Virus record (IMG/VR): IMGVR_UViG_3300018914_000006
Span: 1 to 35,480 of that record
DNA: 35,480 bases
Reading direction: 5' to 3' (one strand)
Origin: a virus
Shown: piece after piece, positions 6,901-26,684 of the stretch
How the letters are laid out: the number at the start of each line of letters is the position of its first letter
Numbering within the stretch: position 1 is the stretch's first letter
Notes under the pieces: model-generated
Seen by the model: only the letters and a program-made list of their open reading frames with translations
Told to the model about the DNA's origin: nothing
Database searches by the model: none
Position numbers and translations under genes: made by a program

Positions 6901-7556
6901 TGAGCGTGACCGACCCCGAGGTCCCCGAGACCACAGCCGAAACCACCGAGATCAGTCACGCGCGCGCGCGTGAGGCTAGCGCGGTCCAGCGTGCCCGCGA
7001 CCTGATGCGGGAGCTCGGCCGCGTGCCCAACGCGAAGGAGCGCATCTGGCTCGTTCTCGACCTTTTCGAGGACGACCTCTGGACCCGCGGCGAGACGGCG
7101 CCGCTGCTGGCCGAGGTGTGGGGCCTGCATCCGAACACGGTGGAGCGGAGCGCGGCCACGGCGGCGCTGATGCTGGAGGACCCGGCCAACGTCGAGCGAG
7201 CTCGCGGCGAGGTGACCACGCGGGCGCTGCGGCGCTCGGACGACATCTACGAGCGGGCGCGGCTGGCTGCGGACCGGGAGGCGGCGGCGCTCTACGCGGC
7301 ATCCAACGGCGCCCTCGACACCTACGGCAAGGCGACCGGCGCCATCGCCCCGCAGCAGACCAACGTCCTCGTCGACCTAAAGACCGGCGGCTACCGGCCC
7401 GAGGTCGCCCGCGAGGTGGACGCCGCCGTGAGCGCCGTCCTCGAGATGGCCGAGCGGGTTGCGGTGCAGCGGTTCGGCATCGACGCGAGCGCCTGGGGCG
7501 CGGCGTTGCAGGCGGAGCATGAGACGGCGGCGCTGCCGGCGAAGGTGGGGCGGTGA
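6900..7556 (+). CDS. HTH protein, possible terminase small subunit
   Basis: A 218-residue helical protein. Residues 45-100 have an HTH-like segment (APLLAEVWGLHPNTVERSAATAALML), followed by long Arg/Glu/Ala helices and a short segment TGAIAPQQTNVLVDLKTGG that resembles the region after the coiled coil in terminase small subunits. A small subunit would recognise phage DNA and recruit the large subunit encoded 3.9 kb downstream; the distance is unusual but not excluded. Coupled by TGATG with GGAGGG upstream of the ATG. Otherwise it is an unclassified regulator. Confidence 0.5.
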   Translation: MSVTDPEVPETTAETTEISHARAREASAVQRARDLMRELGRVPNAKERIWLVLDLFEDDLWTRGETAPLLAEVWGLHPNTVERSAATAALMLEDPANVERARGEVTTRALRRSDDIYERARLAADREAAALYAASNGALDTYGKATGAIAPQQTNVLVDLKTGGYRPEVAREVDAAVSAVLEMAERVAVQRFGIDASAWGAALQAEHETAALPAKVGR

Positions 7557-8332: not shown

Positions 8333-8577
8333 GCCCGCCCCAGAACAGGCCCGCCAAGGCCCCCAGCGTCGCCCACGCACCTCAGGGTGGGCCGTGTGCC
8401 CGTTCGAAGCGGGACTCGGACACTGAATTCGCCGACGCCGTGGCGGGCCGATTCCGCGCGATGGCAGACGGGTACCTGACGAAAGATGACATCGCGTGGC
8501 TCACCTTCGGGCTGCGGTGGGCACGGGCGAAGTGGCACCGGCTGCACACGGCAGACGGCGAGCAAAGGACCGAGTGA
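8329..8577 (+). CDS. Hypothetical protein, 82 aa
   Basis: No family recognised. Residues 28-75 look like a compact helical segment (DTEFADAVAGRFRAMADGYLTKDDIAWLTFGLRWARAKWHRLH) after a Pro-rich start. The ATG overlaps the tiny ORF stop (ATGA), and its own stop overlaps the next ATG (TGATG). Confidence 0.5.
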   Translation: MSPPQNRPAKAPSVAHAPQGGPCARSKRDSDTEFADAVAGRFRAMADGYLTKDDIAWLTFGLRWARAKWHRLHTADGEQRTE

Positions 8578-9342: not shown

Positions 9343-10103
9343 CCACCCGCATCCACGACGAGGAGACCGGGCAGCGGGTGGCGTGGCCGTACAGCGGGAC
9401 GGGCGCGGACCCCGACGAGGGGCTTCGTGAGGTGCTTGCCTCGGCGGTCGCCGCAGGCTGCCGCGTCCCGACGAACCCCGAGGAGTTCCGCGACGCGATG
9501 CGCGAGGCCGAGGCAACGTGGGAGCCGTGGCACGTGCACGTCGGGCATCGTCTCGGCGAGCCGTGCACCGACGGGTGCCGGAAGGTCGAGCAGACCATCC
9601 GCGTCGACGCCACCGACTACGCCCGCCTCGTGGCCGAGCGCGACGCCCTCCGGCAGCAGCGCGACGAGTTGCAGGCGCGGGGGACGGCGCTGGTGGAGGA
9701 GCGGCGGCGGGTGGATTGGACGGAGCAGCTGCGCGCCATGTTCGTGGCGTTCGACCAGGACCTCCCGACCAAGCCTGCGTGGCCGTCGGACTTCGTCATC
9801 ACGCGCCGTATGCGCCTCATCGACGAGGAGCACGAGGAGACCCGCGAGGCGATGCGGTCACGCGACTTCGTCGAGGCTGTCGACGGGTTCGTGGACCTCG
9901 CTGTCGTCGCGCTCGGTGGGTTGCTCGACCTCGGCGTGGACCCGCGTCCGATCTGGGCCGAGGTCTGGAAGACGAACATGGCGAAGGCTTCGGGCCCGGT
10001 GTCGTCGGCGGGAAAGAAGCAGAAGCCGGAAGGGTGGCAGCCGCCGCGGATTCGGGAGCTGTTGATCGCGCAGGGCTGGACTCCGCCGGCGGAGGCGAAG
10101 TGA
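9339..10103 (+). CDS. MazG-like nucleotide pyrophosphohydrolase
   Basis: Likely hydrolyses NTPs, dNTPs or (p)ppGpp-type nucleotides. The catalytic all-alpha core is in the C-terminal half: FDQDLPTKPAWPSDFVITRRMRLIDEEHEETREAMRSRDFVEAVDGFVDLAVVALGGLLDLGVDPRPIWAEVWKTNMAK. The EExxE-type and DGFVDL metal-binding helices are present. The end, KQKPEGWQPPRIRELLIAQGW, is the usual tail of the phage variety. The N-terminal 90 residues (CRVPTNPEEF..., CTDGC) and a coiled coil at about 95-130 are extra. ATG 9339 keeps the four-base overlap; an earlier in-frame start at 9270 would run through the previous gene. With the adjoining DHFR it forms a nucleotide-pool module. Confidence 0.85.
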   Translation: MTTRIHDEETGQRVAWPYSGTGADPDEGLREVLASAVAAGCRVPTNPEEFRDAMREAEATWEPWHVHVGHRLGEPCTDGCRKVEQTIRVDATDYARLVAERDALRQQRDELQARGTALVEERRRVDWTEQLRAMFVAFDQDLPTKPAWPSDFVITRRMRLIDEEHEETREAMRSRDFVEAVDGFVDLAVVALGGLLDLGVDPRPIWAEVWKTNMAKASGPVSSAGKKQKPEGWQPPRIRELLIAQGWTPPAEAK

Positions 10104-10702
10104 TCACCATCGTTGCAGCCATCGGCCGCGGTGGCGCCATAGGCAAGGGTGGCGCGCTGCCGTGGTCCTTCCCCGAGGACATGGCGCACTTCCGCCGCCT
10201 GACGATGGGGCACGCCGTCGTCATGGGCCGGAAGACGTGGGAGAGCATCCCGGCGAAGTTCCGCCCGCTTATGGGACGCCTGAACGTCGTGATGACCCGC
10301 GGCGAGTGGCGCGAGATCCACACCTGCGACCAGGTCAAGTTCCAGTCGCCGGGCCCCATCGTCGCGCGCTCGCTCGACGGTGCAGTGTCACTAGCGCGAA
10401 TGTTCGACCGCCCCACGATCGACATCATCGGTGGCGCCGAGGTGTACGCAGCGGCGCTGCCACTCGCCGACCGGCTGGAGATCACCGAGGTCGACGTGGA
10501 GGTGGAGGACGCGGACGCGTTCTTCCCGTTCCCGCACCTGTTCGCGCCGCAGCGCGACGCGCTCGTCGAGGACGCCGGCTGGACCTGCACCGGCGTGCGA
10601 GTCATCCCCGGCGGCTACCCGGGGCCCGAGTTCGTCCTGACGTCGCGACGCCGCGGCGAGGACCCCGCGATCACGTTCGTCACGTGGGAGCGCGTCCGAT
10701 GA
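10100..10702 (+). CDS. folA: Dihydrofolate reductase
   Basis: Reduces dihydrofolate to tetrahydrofolate with NADPH, supporting thymidylate synthesis during phage replication. The start MITIVAAIGRGGAIGKGGALPW and PEDMAHFRRLTMGHAVVMGRKTWESIP match the DHFR core; the acidic residue D27 falls at the same position as catalytic D27 in the E. coli enzyme, and TWESIP and IIGGAEVY are the NADPH-loop motifs. The 200-residue length is slightly above the bacterial norm. GTG 10100 was chosen because the protein then begins exactly at the conserved first strand and overlaps the MazG stop; the frame is open further upstream but that part is a shadow. No thymidylate synthase is seen in the window. Confidence 0.93.
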   Translation: MITIVAAIGRGGAIGKGGALPWSFPEDMAHFRRLTMGHAVVMGRKTWESIPAKFRPLMGRLNVVMTRGEWREIHTCDQVKFQSPGPIVARSLDGAVSLARMFDRPTIDIIGGAEVYAAALPLADRLEITEVDVEVEDADAFFPFPHLFAPQRDALVEDAGWTCTGVRVIPGGYPGPEFVLTSRRRGEDPAITFVTWERVR

Positions 10703-21852: not shown

Positions 21853-23280
21853 ATGCCTGCTGCCAGCCTTTCGATCGTCCAGAGCGCTTCGGGTCAGCCG
21901 AAGTCCATCGCGCGCGTCATCGCCGTGATCGGACGGTGCTCGGCTGTGTCGACGCCCGCCGTCTACGCCTTCGACACCGACACCACGGTCCCCGACGAGC
22001 TCGGCAACGGCCCGCTTGTCGAGGCGACCATGGCGCTCGTCCGCGAGGGTGGGCAGCGCGTCCTCGCCATCCCGTGCGCCACTGGCGTCGCCGGCAGCCT
22101 TACCGCGGTCACCGAGACGCCCGCCGGTACTGGCCCCGCCATCACGGTCGCAGGGACGCCCTACGACAGCCTCGACATCGTCGTTCGCGTCGTGCGCGGC
22201 GGCGTCATCGGAACGTCGAAGTTCCGCGTCAGCCTCGACGATGGCCTGACCTTCGGCCCCACCCTGACGACCGCGGCGTCGTATCTCATCCCGAAGACGG
22301 GCATCACCATCACGTTCGGGGTCGGAACCTACGTCATCAACACCGACTACACGTTCTCGTCGACCGCCCCGGCGCCTACGACGGCGGAGGTCGCGTCAGC
22401 CATCAACGTGCTCCTCGCTGGCACGCAGCAGGCCTCGCTCATCCTCTTGGCGCAGACGGACACGACGACCGTGACCGAGACGCTCGCCATGGCGAACCAG
22501 CTCGACACGAGCATGGAGAGTGCCCGGCTCGCCAAGCAGTACGTGCGCGCCATGCTGTCGCCGAACGTCGACGCAGCCGACGCCGACATCGCGACGTCGT
22601 TCGGCCCCGGCGCGGCCATCGATGCTGAGCGGGTCGTGCTGGTGCCTGGCGACGCCTACATCAGCGGCGGGAACCTCGCCGGCTCGATGCGCCGCCCGGC
22701 AGCCTGGGCCGCGGCCATAAAGTCTGCGCGCAACCGCCTCTCGTCCGACCTGGGCAACGGCGCCGATGGCCCGCTCCCGTTCGTGAACGACATCACCCGC
22801 GACGAGTTCACGTCCACCGTGAAGCTCCGCGAGGACGGCCGCGCGACGGTCCTGGAGACGCGACCAGGGTCTGACGGCTTCTTCTTCGCCCGTGGAGTGA
22901 CGCTCGCATCGGCGGGCTCGATCTTCTCTGACCTCAACATCGCCCGCGTCATCGACGAGGCGTGCCGCGTCGCGCAGCCGCTCCTGAACCAGGAGGTCAA
23001 CAACGACCCCCTGCTCAAGGCGAACGGCACGATCAGCGATGACGACGCGGAGCGCATCGAGGCCAAGCTCTACGACGCCCTCGAGCTCGCGCTCCTGAAG
23101 CCGGCCGACGGCGTGGCGCACGCCTCGTCCGTCGAGGTTCTGGTCGACCGGTCCAACGTCATCGCCACGACCGAGGACCTGCGCGTGACCATCTCGGTCC
23201 AGAAGAAGGGCCAGAACAAGACCGTCACCGCGACCGTCGGCATCACGTCGACCGCATCGTCGCAGCCGCTCGCGGCCTGA
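21853..23280 (+). CDS. Tail sheath protein, DUF2586-like
   Basis: 475-residue contractile sheath subunit. Recognised by the order GDAYISGGNLAGSMRRPAAWAAAIKSARNRLSSDLGNGADGPLPFVNDITRDEF and FFFARGVTLASAGSIFSDLNIARVIDEACRVAQPLLNQEVNNDPLLKANGTISDDDAERIEAKLYDAL, the conserved core of Mu-like/DUF2586 sheaths. The middle (about 80-190) is a beta-rich insertion (GRCSAVST..., TPYDSLDIVVRVVRGG) likely exposed on the outside of the sheath. It establishes a contractile tail. Own leader with hairpins and GGAG site. Confidence 0.9.
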   Translation: MPAASLSIVQSASGQPKSIARVIAVIGRCSAVSTPAVYAFDTDTTVPDELGNGPLVEATMALVREGGQRVLAIPCATGVAGSLTAVTETPAGTGPAITVAGTPYDSLDIVVRVVRGGVIGTSKFRVSLDDGLTFGPTLTTAASYLIPKTGITITFGVGTYVINTDYTFSSTAPAPTTAEVASAINVLLAGTQQASLILLAQTDTTTVTETLAMANQLDTSMESARLAKQYVRAMLSPNVDAADADIATSFGPGAAIDAERVVLVPGDAYISGGNLAGSMRRPAAWAAAIKSARNRLSSDLGNGADGPLPFVNDITRDEFTSTVKLREDGRATVLETRPGSDGFFFARGVTLASAGSIFSDLNIARVIDEACRVAQPLLNQEVNNDPLLKANGTISDDDAERIEAKLYDALELALLKPADGVAHASSVEVLVDRSNVIATTEDLRVTISVQKKGQNKTVTATVGITSTASSQPLAA

Positions 23281-23363: not shown

Positions 23364-23825
23364 ATGGCAACTGTTGGTGGGAGCCGCAGTCATGCGGACA
23401 AGGTCGTCACGATGCACTTCGCCGACGGGCAGAGCTACACGCTCCGCACGGCAGAGAGCATCGAGTACGAGCCGAACGCGACGCACGCCGTCGTGGGTGG
23501 CACGCAGGTCGGCCCGGTCGACCATGCGGTCGGCTCGGCGGACCCGACGTGGTCCTTCGAAGTCGCCGAGATCGATAAGGAGGCCATCGAGGACAAGATG
23601 GGCGCGGGCCTCATCGGCAAGCGCATCCCGCGCATCACCATCGCGAAGAAGGCCAGCGGGACGCTCGGCCGCCGCGTGGACACGCTGGTCAACTGCCGCA
23701 TCGAGGGCTTCCCGAACTCCTCGTCCCGCGGCGAGAAGGGTGGCGGAACCGTCTCCGGCGTGTGCACCGACATCCTCTACAACGGCAAGAGCGCTCTCAA
23801 TGAGCCTGCGACGGCGGCGATCTGA
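23364..23825 (+). CDS. Tail tube protein
   Basis: 153 residues, mostly beta strands (KVVTMHFADGQSYTLRTAESIEYEPNATHAVVGG, DPTWSFEVAEIDKEAIEDKM, RIPRITIAKK... TLVNCRIEGFPNSSSRGEKGGGTVSGVCTDILYNGKSAL). Length, fold pattern and location after the sheath fit the inner tube subunit through which DNA passes. GAGGAG precedes the ATG. Confidence 0.8.
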   Translation: MATVGGSRSHADKVVTMHFADGQSYTLRTAESIEYEPNATHAVVGGTQVGPVDHAVGSADPTWSFEVAEIDKEAIEDKMGAGLIGKRIPRITIAKKASGTLGRRVDTLVNCRIEGFPNSSSRGEKGGGTVSGVCTDILYNGKSALNEPATAAI

Positions 23826-24499
23826 TGGGTCTCCCGTCGTCTGAGGTTATTGCAGACCTCAAGCAGAAGCACGGCGACGTCTTCTTCGCCGACTTCGGCG
23901 AGGAGCGGCTGCTCTTCCGCAAGCCGGCCATGCCCGAGGTCGACGCCTACCTGCTCGGCACCGTGCGCGGCACGGCCGAGGAGAGCGCGAACAACCTCAT
24001 CTTCGCCGCCCGCCTGTGGCCGTCCGTCGAGCAGCTCCAGGAGTCGTTCGACGAGGCTCCTGCTGTTGTGGCGAAGTGCGCCGAGTCGGTCATGGAGACC
24101 GCTGGTGCCGACGAGGAGACGATGGCTGGCCTCGTTCCGGCCACGCTAGACAAGCTCTCCGACGAGCAGCGCGCCGAGCTCGAGCAGCGGACCGGGCAGA
24201 AGGTCTCCGACCTTGAGAACTCGCACCCGCGCGGAGTCCTCCGGTACGTGCGCCTGCCAGGCGTCGGCATCTCCGTCTTCCGACGGCCGACCCGGTCGTC
24301 GTACGCCGCCTTCGCAGACGCGTCGAAGAAGGACGAGGTCATGCAGGCGTGCCGCGACCTGTCGGCTGAGTGCGCCATCACGGATGCGAAGGCGCTTCCG
24401 GGCGTGTTCGCCTCGGCGCCGGCGGTGCCGTTCTACCTCGCCTTCGCTCTCGCGTCGCTTGCTGGCGCTCATCTCGAGGTCCGCTCGGGAAAGCTCTAG
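23825..24499 (+). CDS. Tail assembly chaperone, 0-frame product (gpG-like)
   Basis: 224-residue helical protein made before the tape measure; such proteins coat the tape measure until the tube is assembled. Sequence holds a chaperone-like core (EERLLFRKPAMPEVDAYLLGTVRGTAEESANNLIFAARLWPS) and ends RSGKL at a TAG. Eight bases before the end of the frame lies GGGAAAG, a -1 frameshift site. TGATG overlap with the tube gene. Confidence 0.78.
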   Translation: MGLPSSEVIADLKQKHGDVFFADFGEERLLFRKPAMPEVDAYLLGTVRGTAEESANNLIFAARLWPSVEQLQESFDEAPAVVAKCAESVMETAGADEETMAGLVPATLDKLSDEQRAELEQRTGQKVSDLENSHPRGVLRYVRLPGVGISVFRRPTRSSYAAFADASKKDEVMQACRDLSAECAITDAKALPGVFASAPAVPFYLAFALASLAGAHLEVRSGKL

Positions 24500-24666
24500 G
24501 GCTCCTGCGGGGGCTGCGACGAGACTTAGGAGCCGCCGCAGACGCGCTCCTCTCTTTCACGGGGCGCGACCCCGACGCTGCTGACGAGTCCGCCTACTCC
24601 GGCGCCGTGCTCGTCGCTGCGTACCTGCTGACGCAACTGCCGCCTGAGAAGACGGGGAGGCGCTGA
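23825..24666 (+). CDS. Tail assembly chaperone, -1 frameshift product (gpGT-like), 280 aa
   Basis: Slipping back one base at 24487-24493 joins 223 residues of the upstream frame to 57 residues encoded by 24493-24663 (GLLRGLRRDLGAAADALLSFTGRDPDAADESAYSGAVLVAAYLLTQLPPEKTGRR). The second part lacks a good start of its own and fills what would otherwise be a coding gap before the tape measure, which is how lambda G-T and P2 E-E' chaperones are built. Confidence 0.75.
24487..24539 (+). promoter_or_regulatory. Programmed -1 frameshift signal: GGGAAAG and downstream stem
   Basis: The heptamer lies in the required phasing (G GGA AAG), identical to lambda G-T. Six bases later GGCTCCT (24500-24506) pairs with AGGAGCC (24528-24534), a perfect 7-base stem. 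The loop bases GCGG (24507-24510) can pair with CCGC at 24536-24539, giving a possible H-type pseudoknot. Confidence 0.8.
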
Positions 24667-24668
24667 CG

Positions 24669-26684
24669 ATGGCAATCAGCGAGCGCGTCGACCTCGTCGG
24701 CAACGTCAGCCAGCAAGCCCGCGCGTGGAGTCGCGACCTCGCACGTCTCGCGGCACAGGCCCGCAAGCTCAACCAGGCGATGGGCGGTCGCGGCGGCGGC
24801 GGGTCGATGCCCGGCGTTCCGAAGCAAGCTCGTGCACGCGGCGGCTCGTCATCAGCCGAAGTGCGTGAGCAGCGCGCAAAGGCGGACGCGCTTCGTGAAC
24901 AGGCACGCGCGGCGGCGGCGGCGGGGCGTGCACAGGCCAAAGCCGCTCGCGACCAGGCGAGGGCCGAGACAACGGCCGCGAAGCAGCGCTCGCGCGCCGA
25001 GGCCGCCGCTGCGAAGGCCCAACAGAAGGCGGCCGCAACATCCGCCAGAGCAGCCGGCGCGAAGGTGCCAACGGGCGCGCGCGCTCCCTCAGGTGGAGGC
25101 CAAGGCAAGGCGGGTAACAAGGCGCTCCCGCGTCAGGAGGTCGGCGGCATCGGCGGTGCGCTCAACAGCATGGCCGGCAACCTCATGGCCGATGCTGCCA
25201 CCGCGGCCATGTCGGCGCTCGCCGGGATGATGAAGTCGATGGCCTCGACCTTCATCGAAGCGCAGAAGTTCCGCGAGAACAGTCTCGCCGGCCTGACCAT
25301 CCTCCATAAGAGCGGCATCGAAGCGAACAAGACATGGAAGGAATCGTTCAAGCTCGCCCGCGAGACCGGCACGACGCAGCAGGAGACGATGAGCTCGATT
25401 CAGGGGCTCATGTCCAAGGGCTTCAAGAAGAACGACGCCGTCGAGCTGTACAAGCTCATGAACGCGGTGTCTGTCGTGAACCCGGCAGCGAACCTTGACG
25501 GCATCGTCACAGCGATCGGGCAGATCAAGAACACGGGCAAGCTCCAAGGCGACGAGTTGCTTCAGCTTGCTGACGCCGGCGTCTCGGTCGACGCGGTTTA
25601 CAAGGCGCTCGGCAAGAGGCTCGGCAAGACCCGTGAGCAGATCATCGCCATGCAGGGAGCTGGCGACATCAAGGCCGACGACGCCATCGCCGCCATCAAG
25701 GACGCGATGAAGGAATCCGTCGGCGGTGACGTCAACGGAGCTCTACACACCAAGGCCAACAGCCTGTCCGCCATCATGGGCCAGCTACAGGCGGCGCCGA
25801 TGACGTTCTTCTCTGGGCTGGAGCAGGACCCGGCGCTAATGGAGAAGATGAAGGTTTCTCTCAAGAGCCTCGTCGACATGATGGACCCTTCGACGGCGAA
25901 GGGTAAGCAGACGGCAGAGTCGTTCTCCAAGCTGATCGACGTCATCGCTGGTCCAGGCGCGGACCTGTTCACGAAGATGGTGGCTGGTGCGCCCGAGTTC
26001 CTGGCCACGCTCACTAGCTTGGGCGAAAGCCTCGGCCCGATCATCTCTCTTCTAGGTGCCCTTGGTGGCGCGTCTCTTTACGTGCAGTCCGGAATCGCGA
26101 AGTTCATCGAGATGATCCGCAGCGCCGGATCTGTCGGCAGCATTTGGTCGTGGATTCCGGCCCTCATTGCCCAGATCGCCGGGCTCGGGTCCACGTTCTC
26201 ATCCGGTGGCGCGTCGATGGGCTCGCAGCTAATCAGCGGCATCGTGCAGGGCATCTTCGGCGGGTCCTCATCGGTCGTGTCCGCGATCATGAGCATGGCG
26301 CAAACCGCGATAGGCGCGGGCAACTCGGCCTTTCAGATCCGCAGCCCGTCGCGCGTCTTCGCCGACATGGGCGAGCAGCTCCCCGCCGGGCTATCCCGCG
26401 GCGTCGTCGACAACATGGCGGTCGTCGAGCGGTCGTCTCAGGCCATGGCTGGCTCTGCCACCAACGCCACCTCCTCCGCGCTGCCGTTCATCGGCGACGC
26501 GTTCCAGGAGCGCGGCATGGGCCGTCAGACGACCAACAACTTCGGCGGCATCCGGTTCAACGCTGGCGGGTTCAACGTCGGCGGTCCTGGCCAGGCGCAG
26601 CCGGAAGACATCGCCCGCGACATCAACCGGCTCATCCAGCAGGGCGTGCAGAACTTCATGAACAAGTCGGCGGAGGCTGCGTAG
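24669..26684 (+). CDS. Tape measure protein
   Basis: 671 residues that set tail length and reach into the host envelope. Residues 80-150 are an Ala/Gln/Arg/Lys coiled coil, 170-380 a helical block (FIEAQKFRENSLAGLTILHKSGIEANKTWKESFKLARETGTTQQETMSSIQGLMSKG... TGKLQGDELLQLADAGVSVDAVYKALG) shared by phage tape measures, and about 450-520 hydrophobic helices (ISLLGALGGASLYVQSGIAKF, IWSWIPALIAQIAGLG). SPSRVFADMGEQLPAGLSRGV near 560 is a common tape-measure end motif. At roughly 0.15 nm per residue the tail would be about 100 nm, a rule-of-thumb estimate. Starts two bases after the chaperone. Confidence 0.92.
   Translation: MAISERVDLVGNVSQQARAWSRDLARLAAQARKLNQAMGGRGGGGSMPGVPKQARARGGSSSAEVREQRAKADALREQARAAAAAGRAQAKAARDQARAETTAAKQRSRAEAAAAKAQQKAAATSARAAGAKVPTGARAPSGGGQGKAGNKALPRQEVGGIGGALNSMAGNLMADAATAAMSALAGMMKSMASTFIEAQKFRENSLAGLTILHKSGIEANKTWKESFKLARETGTTQQETMSSIQGLMSKGFKKNDAVELYKLMNAVSVVNPAANLDGIVTAIGQIKNTGKLQGDELLQLADAGVSVDAVYKALGKRLGKTREQIIAMQGAGDIKADDAIAAIKDAMKESVGGDVNGALHTKANSLSAIMGQLQAAPMTFFSGLEQDPALMEKMKVSLKSLVDMMDPSTAKGKQTAESFSKLIDVIAGPGADLFTKMVAGAPEFLATLTSLGESLGPIISLLGALGGASLYVQSGIAKFIEMIRSAGSVGSIWSWIPALIAQIAGLGSTFSSGGASMGSQLISGIVQGIFGGSSSVVSAIMSMAQTAIGAGNSAFQIRSPSRVFADMGEQLPAGLSRGVVDNMAVVERSSQAMAGSATNATSSALPFIGDAFQERGMGRQTTNNFGGIRFNAGGFNVGGPGQAQPEDIARDINRLIQQGVQNFMNKSAEAA

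Follow-up and report, generated by a model that had tools for sequence, protein, structure and literature searches.

The window analysed here is a whole IMG/VR virus record (IMGVR_UViG_3300018914_000006) of 35,480 nt. Its predicted proteins include a Mu-type portal (PF06074, Portal_Mu; E = 5.5e-72) and a major head protein matching phrog_1005, and on the basis of these matches, together with a tail sheath of the DUF2586 family and a tape measure protein of the TMP_3 family, a Mu-like head and a contractile tail module are assigned to the phage. A tail assembly chaperone gene and a T-like extension are lodged between the sheath and tape measure genes, giving the order sheath, chaperone, T, tape measure. 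The features of this interval are as follows:

21853..23280, plus strand: tail sheath of a contractile tail (PF10758, DUF2586, E = 3.4e-25; phrog_907 tail sheath), upstream of the chaperone
23825..24499, plus strand: tail assembly chaperone, short (G-like) product of 224 aa, an open reading frame matching PF20941 (DUF6848, E = 1.7e-7)
24476..24479, plus strand: GAGG, lying 7 nt ahead of the heptamer, a weak candidate for a Shine-Dalgarno-like stimulator
24487..24493, plus strand: phased slippery heptamer G_GGA_AAG, starting 10 nt ahead of the stop, with aligned heptamers in relatives
24494..24663, plus strand: -1 frame extension (T-like domain) of 57 codons, recognized by T-domain homology and reached only after a shift
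24497..24499, plus strand: TAG that closes the zero-frame open reading frame of the short product
24500..24541, plus strand: GC-rich downstream structure, a probable stimulator judged by fold energies and by the class-wide downstream structure
24669..26684, plus strand: tape measure protein of 671 aa (PF20155, TMP_3, E = 2.1e-12; PHROG tape measure families), with an ATG start at 24669

Elsewhere in the window, a C-5 cytosine DNA methyltransferase gene (2-1318) borders the left end of the record, which truncates it. A 394-residue open reading frame at 9518-10702 contains a dihydrofolate reductase domain confined to its second half (residues 196-337), and a Pfam search of its first half gave no match.

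The chaperone and its duplicated domain

The PF20941 match covers residues 27-98 of the chaperone and scores 32.2 bits against a curated cut-off of 27. A chaperone family profile built without the window matches both halves of the protein, at residues 6-99 (i-E = 1.1e-14) and 125-223 (i-E = 1.1e-8), and the protein is therefore a tandem duplication of the chaperone domain. In an AlphaFold2 model (pLDDT 73.9 overall, with poor confidence in the second half) the order helix-hairpin-helix likewise appears twice. Among solved structures, 3FGX (target TM 0.82, E = 8.6e-3) comes closest to the first domain, and the HK97 chaperone 2OB9 gives a weak match. Most relatives carry a single copy of the domain, and the duplicated form recurs in the loci L026 and L029 and in the near-duplicates of the latter, L030 and L064. 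Neither annotated phages nor viral contigs yielded a match when searched with the chaperone protein, and no match to a lambda G family of Pfam was detected in it. An alignment of the fused G-T sequences proved too poorly conserved for scanning.

The slippery site, its reading frames and its conservation

The chaperone reading frame ends with the codons TCG GGA AAG CTC TAG, in which G_GGA_AAG occupies 24487-24493 in the phasing of lambda G-T, the heptamer starting ten bases ahead of the first base of the stop. In a census of 34 likely genes, comprising 9,819 codons in reading frames picked by hand to tile the window, 12 in-phase sites of the form X_XXY_YYZ were encountered, and this is the only one of the 12 in which Y is A or T. 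Extension codons in the -1 frame are read from GCT (from 24493) as far as a TGA at 24664-24666, shortly before the tape measure ATG, and the predicted fusion comprises 223 + 57 = 280 residues. An earlier sequence-only reading of this DNA had described the phased GGGAAAG, a -1 frame continuing for 57 residues to the tape measure gene and a product of 280 residues, and the coordinates and computed length bear it out on each of these points.

A T-domain profile, made from the extensions of 15 relatives with the window excluded, was scanned against the 631 six-frame open reading frames of at least 25 residues in the window. It selected the -1 frame extension with an E-value of 4e-7, the next best frame standing at 0.35; as the sole window reading frame picked by a profile built without the window, the -1 frame is taken to be coding. 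The extension shares 41% identity over 46 aa with its counterpart in Thermus phage Riverbug, and it also aligns to the extensions of Meiothermus phage MMP7 and Myxococcus phage Mx4. Used as a search query itself, the -1 frame product gave no match, and a scan of 24000-25000 against Rfam likewise gave none.

Related loci were gathered by a sheath alignment search, which yielded 64 viral and 16 genome loci, in most of which the chaperone gene was located with the chaperone profile; 49 loci were left after removal of near-duplicates. The sheath sequence alone had no match among viral contigs, and no close relative of the window was found, the best sheath identity being about 34%; at such distances the stem downstream of the heptamer does not align. 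A purine-A heptamer is situated 7-16 nt before the chaperone stop in 14 of the 49 dereplicated loci, and in 10 of these 14 it lies exactly at -10, the window being included in both counts. The heptamers found at exactly -10 in the relatives are A_AAA_AAG (L011, L034 and L027), A_AAA_AAA (L066, L029, L043, L044 and L009) and A_AAA_AAC (L018). Heptamers of this A_AAA_AAA/G/C kind are found in distant Mu-like contractile-tail relatives, at the same codon as the window heptamer or near it. In the clearest alignment, GTC CGG GCA AAA AAG CTC TAG of L034 is matched with GTC CGC TCG GGA AAG CTC TAG of the window, such that the slippery position is kept although the encoded residues differ (KK versus GK).

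The heptamer, which related phages were expected to keep, is conserved in 13 further dereplicated loci but is not universal: a canonical heptamer is absent from L010, L028, L033 and L061, and a +1 branch of the family, described below, apparently uses another site. All that L028, L033 and L061 show is a run of the AAAA type. The site of L010 reads A_AAA_ATA with both frames open, and its near-duplicate L009 has A_AAA_AAA; the L010 sequence (8530-8540) could represent a lost heptamer, a different and weaker site or an assembly error. Upstream of the heptamer, the GAGG at 24476-24479 keeps the same spacing in L024, L027, L034 (as AGGAGG) and L043, and may be a Shine-Dalgarno-like stimulator or merely reflect conserved Glu-Val codons.

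Downstream RNA structure

The 46 nt beginning at 24500 are more stable than 98% of the genome's windows. Their minimum-energy fold is a nested hairpin that pairs 24505-24510 with 24536-24541 and 24512-24515 with 24531-24534 (-20.4 kcal/mol). The perfect 7-base stem that had been proposed six bases after the heptamer is present as GGCTCCT (24500-24506) and AGGAGCC (24528-24534), with a 6-nt spacer, but it is not part of the minimum-energy fold, its own energy being -11.3 kcal/mol and that of a fold in which it is forced -14.9 kcal/mol. The frequency of perfect stems of at least 7 bp at a spacer of 5-8 is 2.7% among dinucleotide shuffles and 2.4% among the remaining window positions, and hence this stem alone is only modestly unusual.

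The sequence-only reading had further suggested that the loop of the stem pairs with a downstream CCGC to form a pseudoknot. The complementarity is real, with GCGG at 24507-24510 facing CCGC at 24536-24539, and an H-type pseudoknot acting as the stimulator would have two perfectly complementary stems and a suitable 6-nt spacer. The bases of its second stem, however, belong to the competing nested hairpin (-20.4 versus -11.3 to -14.9 kcal/mol), its connectors, 0 nt ahead of the second stem and 1 nt separating the downstream strands of the two stems, look too short for stems of 7 and 4 bp, and relatives share no common shape. The classical H-type pseudoknot, sterically implausible as it appears, was rejected on energy and geometry, and we consider such a stimulator improbable; the question concerns the stimulator only and not the frameshift.

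Downstream structure of some form is enriched in the -1 class. In its 14 dereplicated loci the corresponding stretch is consistently stable relative to genome windows (combined P ~4e-6, and 2e-5 with the window left out), it is more stable than in the 10 loci of the +1 branch (Mann-Whitney P = 3e-5) and its stability exceeds that of shuffles among synonymous codons (mean z -1.23, Wilcoxon P = 3e-4), all these P values being somewhat optimistic because the loci are related by descent. The signal in the -1 class peaks directly after the heptamer. The window's own fold, taken alone, is not significant against synonymous-codon shuffles (z -0.89, P = 0.18). A downstream stimulator at the window site is plausible, in one or another of the alternative folds; no common fold shape was found among the -1 class relatives. 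A second dip, with weaker support, is seen about 80 nt further on in the -1 class.

Proposed joining of the frames and recoding across the family

One could imagine that the two reading frames are expressed separately and without a frameshift, the second either from its own start, such as the GTG at 24370, or through coupled re-initiation in the vicinity of the TAG. In some Microbacterium EA phages the two chaperone reading frames are expressed with no evident frameshift (PMC7302621), and the -1 frame of the window is indeed open from 24370, with a GTG at hand. A start there would nonetheless add about 40 residues of non-conserved reading, and from the heptamer to the conserved start of the T domain the -1 frame offers no ATG, GTG or TTG. 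Separate expression would also leave aside a heptamer that is unique in the likely coding sequence and placed as in relatives, and we regard it as very unlikely. Least probable of all is a joining of the frames by transcriptional slippage or by a +1 or -2 ribosomal shift, for which the apparent use of +1 at TTT_C in relatives of the Thermus/Meiothermus branch provides a precedent, given that the homologous T domain of the window sits in the -1 frame, that the +1 frame closes after 28 codons with no T-domain match and that a long homopolymer, as would suit transcriptional slippage, is missing from GGGAAA.

We therefore favor a programmed -1 ribosomal frameshift of the lambda G/GT type in the tail assembly chaperone, with a probability of about 0.94, on account of the in-phase heptamer, the coding -1 frame, the conserved slippery position and the fitting gene order. 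This was the central proposal of the sequence-only reading, and the conserved T domain, the slippery position and the gene order now lend it strong support. As far as comparison of sequences can tell, the site matches the lambda G/GT scheme in every testable feature.

What follows on the slippage, its frequency, the part played by the fold and the contacts among the proteins is our inference. Most ribosomes would terminate at the TAG at 24497, their product being the 224-residue chaperone. In a minority of cases, with the GC-rich downstream fold as the probable brake, the ribosome would slip one base backward with GGA in the P site and AAG in the A site, re-pair on GGG and AAA, and go on to add the 57 residues of the T domain, yielding the fusion of 280 residues. 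If lambda is a guide, the short form may coat the tape measure protein, and a few long forms may recruit tail-tube subunits.

The frameshift in the lambda G/GT tail assembly chaperone was reportedly described by Levin, Hendrix and Casjens in 1993, and PMC5009743 reviews it. The lambda site and that of the window share the heptamer G_GGA_AAG (PMC7618472), its phase and its position near the end of the first reading frame, and in both of these long-tailed phages the -1 extension stops before the tape measure gene; the window differs from lambda in its contractile tail, its two-domain duplicated chaperone and its downstream GC-rich fold. In lambda, where G and GT are made at a ratio of about 30:1, the binding partner of G is the tape measure protein and that of T the tube protein (PMC5009743). 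The heptamer is highly shift-prone in E. coli (PMC7618472; PMC5009743); with the tRNAs of this phage's host its slipperiness may differ. Mass spectrometry of virion proteins, one of the checks put forward earlier, is a poor test of the fusion, since both G and GT are absent from the mature lambda virion (PMC5009743). The predicted junction, SGK-ALGLLR, has a trypsin site exactly at the join; Arg-C would release the peptide SGKALGLLR, and Glu-C (cleaving at E and D) the peptide VRSGKALGLLRGLRRD. With the proposed shift, frameshifting of the lambda type in tail chaperones would reach an undescribed phage that combines a Mu-like head with a contractile tail, and the predicted proteome would be corrected by a 280-residue product that gene callers overlook.

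It is already known that tailed phages differ in the direction of this shift, with -1, -2 and +1 cases in different phages (PMC5009743). Phage Mu resembles the window in its Mu-like head and contractile tail module and in having a frameshifted chaperone before the tape measure gene, a likeness of module and gene position; its shift is -2 (PMC5009743), as against -1 in the window. Myxococcus phage Mx4 (p57/p58; L003) has a homologous chaperone and T domain in the same gene order and a putative -1 shift at A_AAA_AAA. Mx4 differs in having a single chaperone domain and an A-rich heptamer at -13, and its p57 and p58 are annotated as two separate hypothetical proteins with no frameshift recorded. 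Meiothermus phage MMP7 (L004) and Thermus phage Riverbug (L005) also have, ahead of the tape measure gene, a T domain and an XkdN-like chaperone that are homologous, and likewise lack a frameshift annotation; their extensions, in contrast to that of the window, lie in the +1 frame, are apparently reached via TTT_C and go with no enriched downstream structure.

These two phages belong to a set of 10 loci of the Thermus/Meiothermus type (L004 at 7080-7115, L005 at 7020-7040, L006, L012, L015, L020, L022, L032, L047 and L070) with the homologous extension in the +1 frame. An in-phase TTT_C motif stands near the chaperone stop in 10/10 of them, in contexts such as GAN TTT CGN or CGR TTT CTG, and the branch apparently reaches the T domain by a +1 shift at this motif. 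Enrichment of downstream structure is absent from the 10 loci (percentiles 0.30-0.97). We lean, with some reserve, toward a single chaperone family that reaches the same T domain either by a -1 shift at a purine-A heptamer followed by a fold, as in the window and Mx4, or by a structure-free +1 shift at TTT_C, as in the Thermus/Meiothermus phages, some members such as the window having duplicated the chaperone domain. The wider family could then display an evolutionary change of recoding direction, and would constitute a natural series for a recoding site that changes direction while its product is kept.

Other loci contain further candidate in-phase -1 sites, of the types T_TTT_TTG/C, G_GGT_TTC/T and C_CCT_TTC/T. 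In 10 loci from spirochaetes and others (L055, L060, L063, L067, L068, L077, L080, L082, L084 and L085) the in-phase sequence CCT TTY TTC recurs some 40-43 nt ahead of the stop of the chaperone gene. The -1 frame opens a short way upstream of it, and C_CCT_TTY or T_TTT_TTC is a possible -1 site there.
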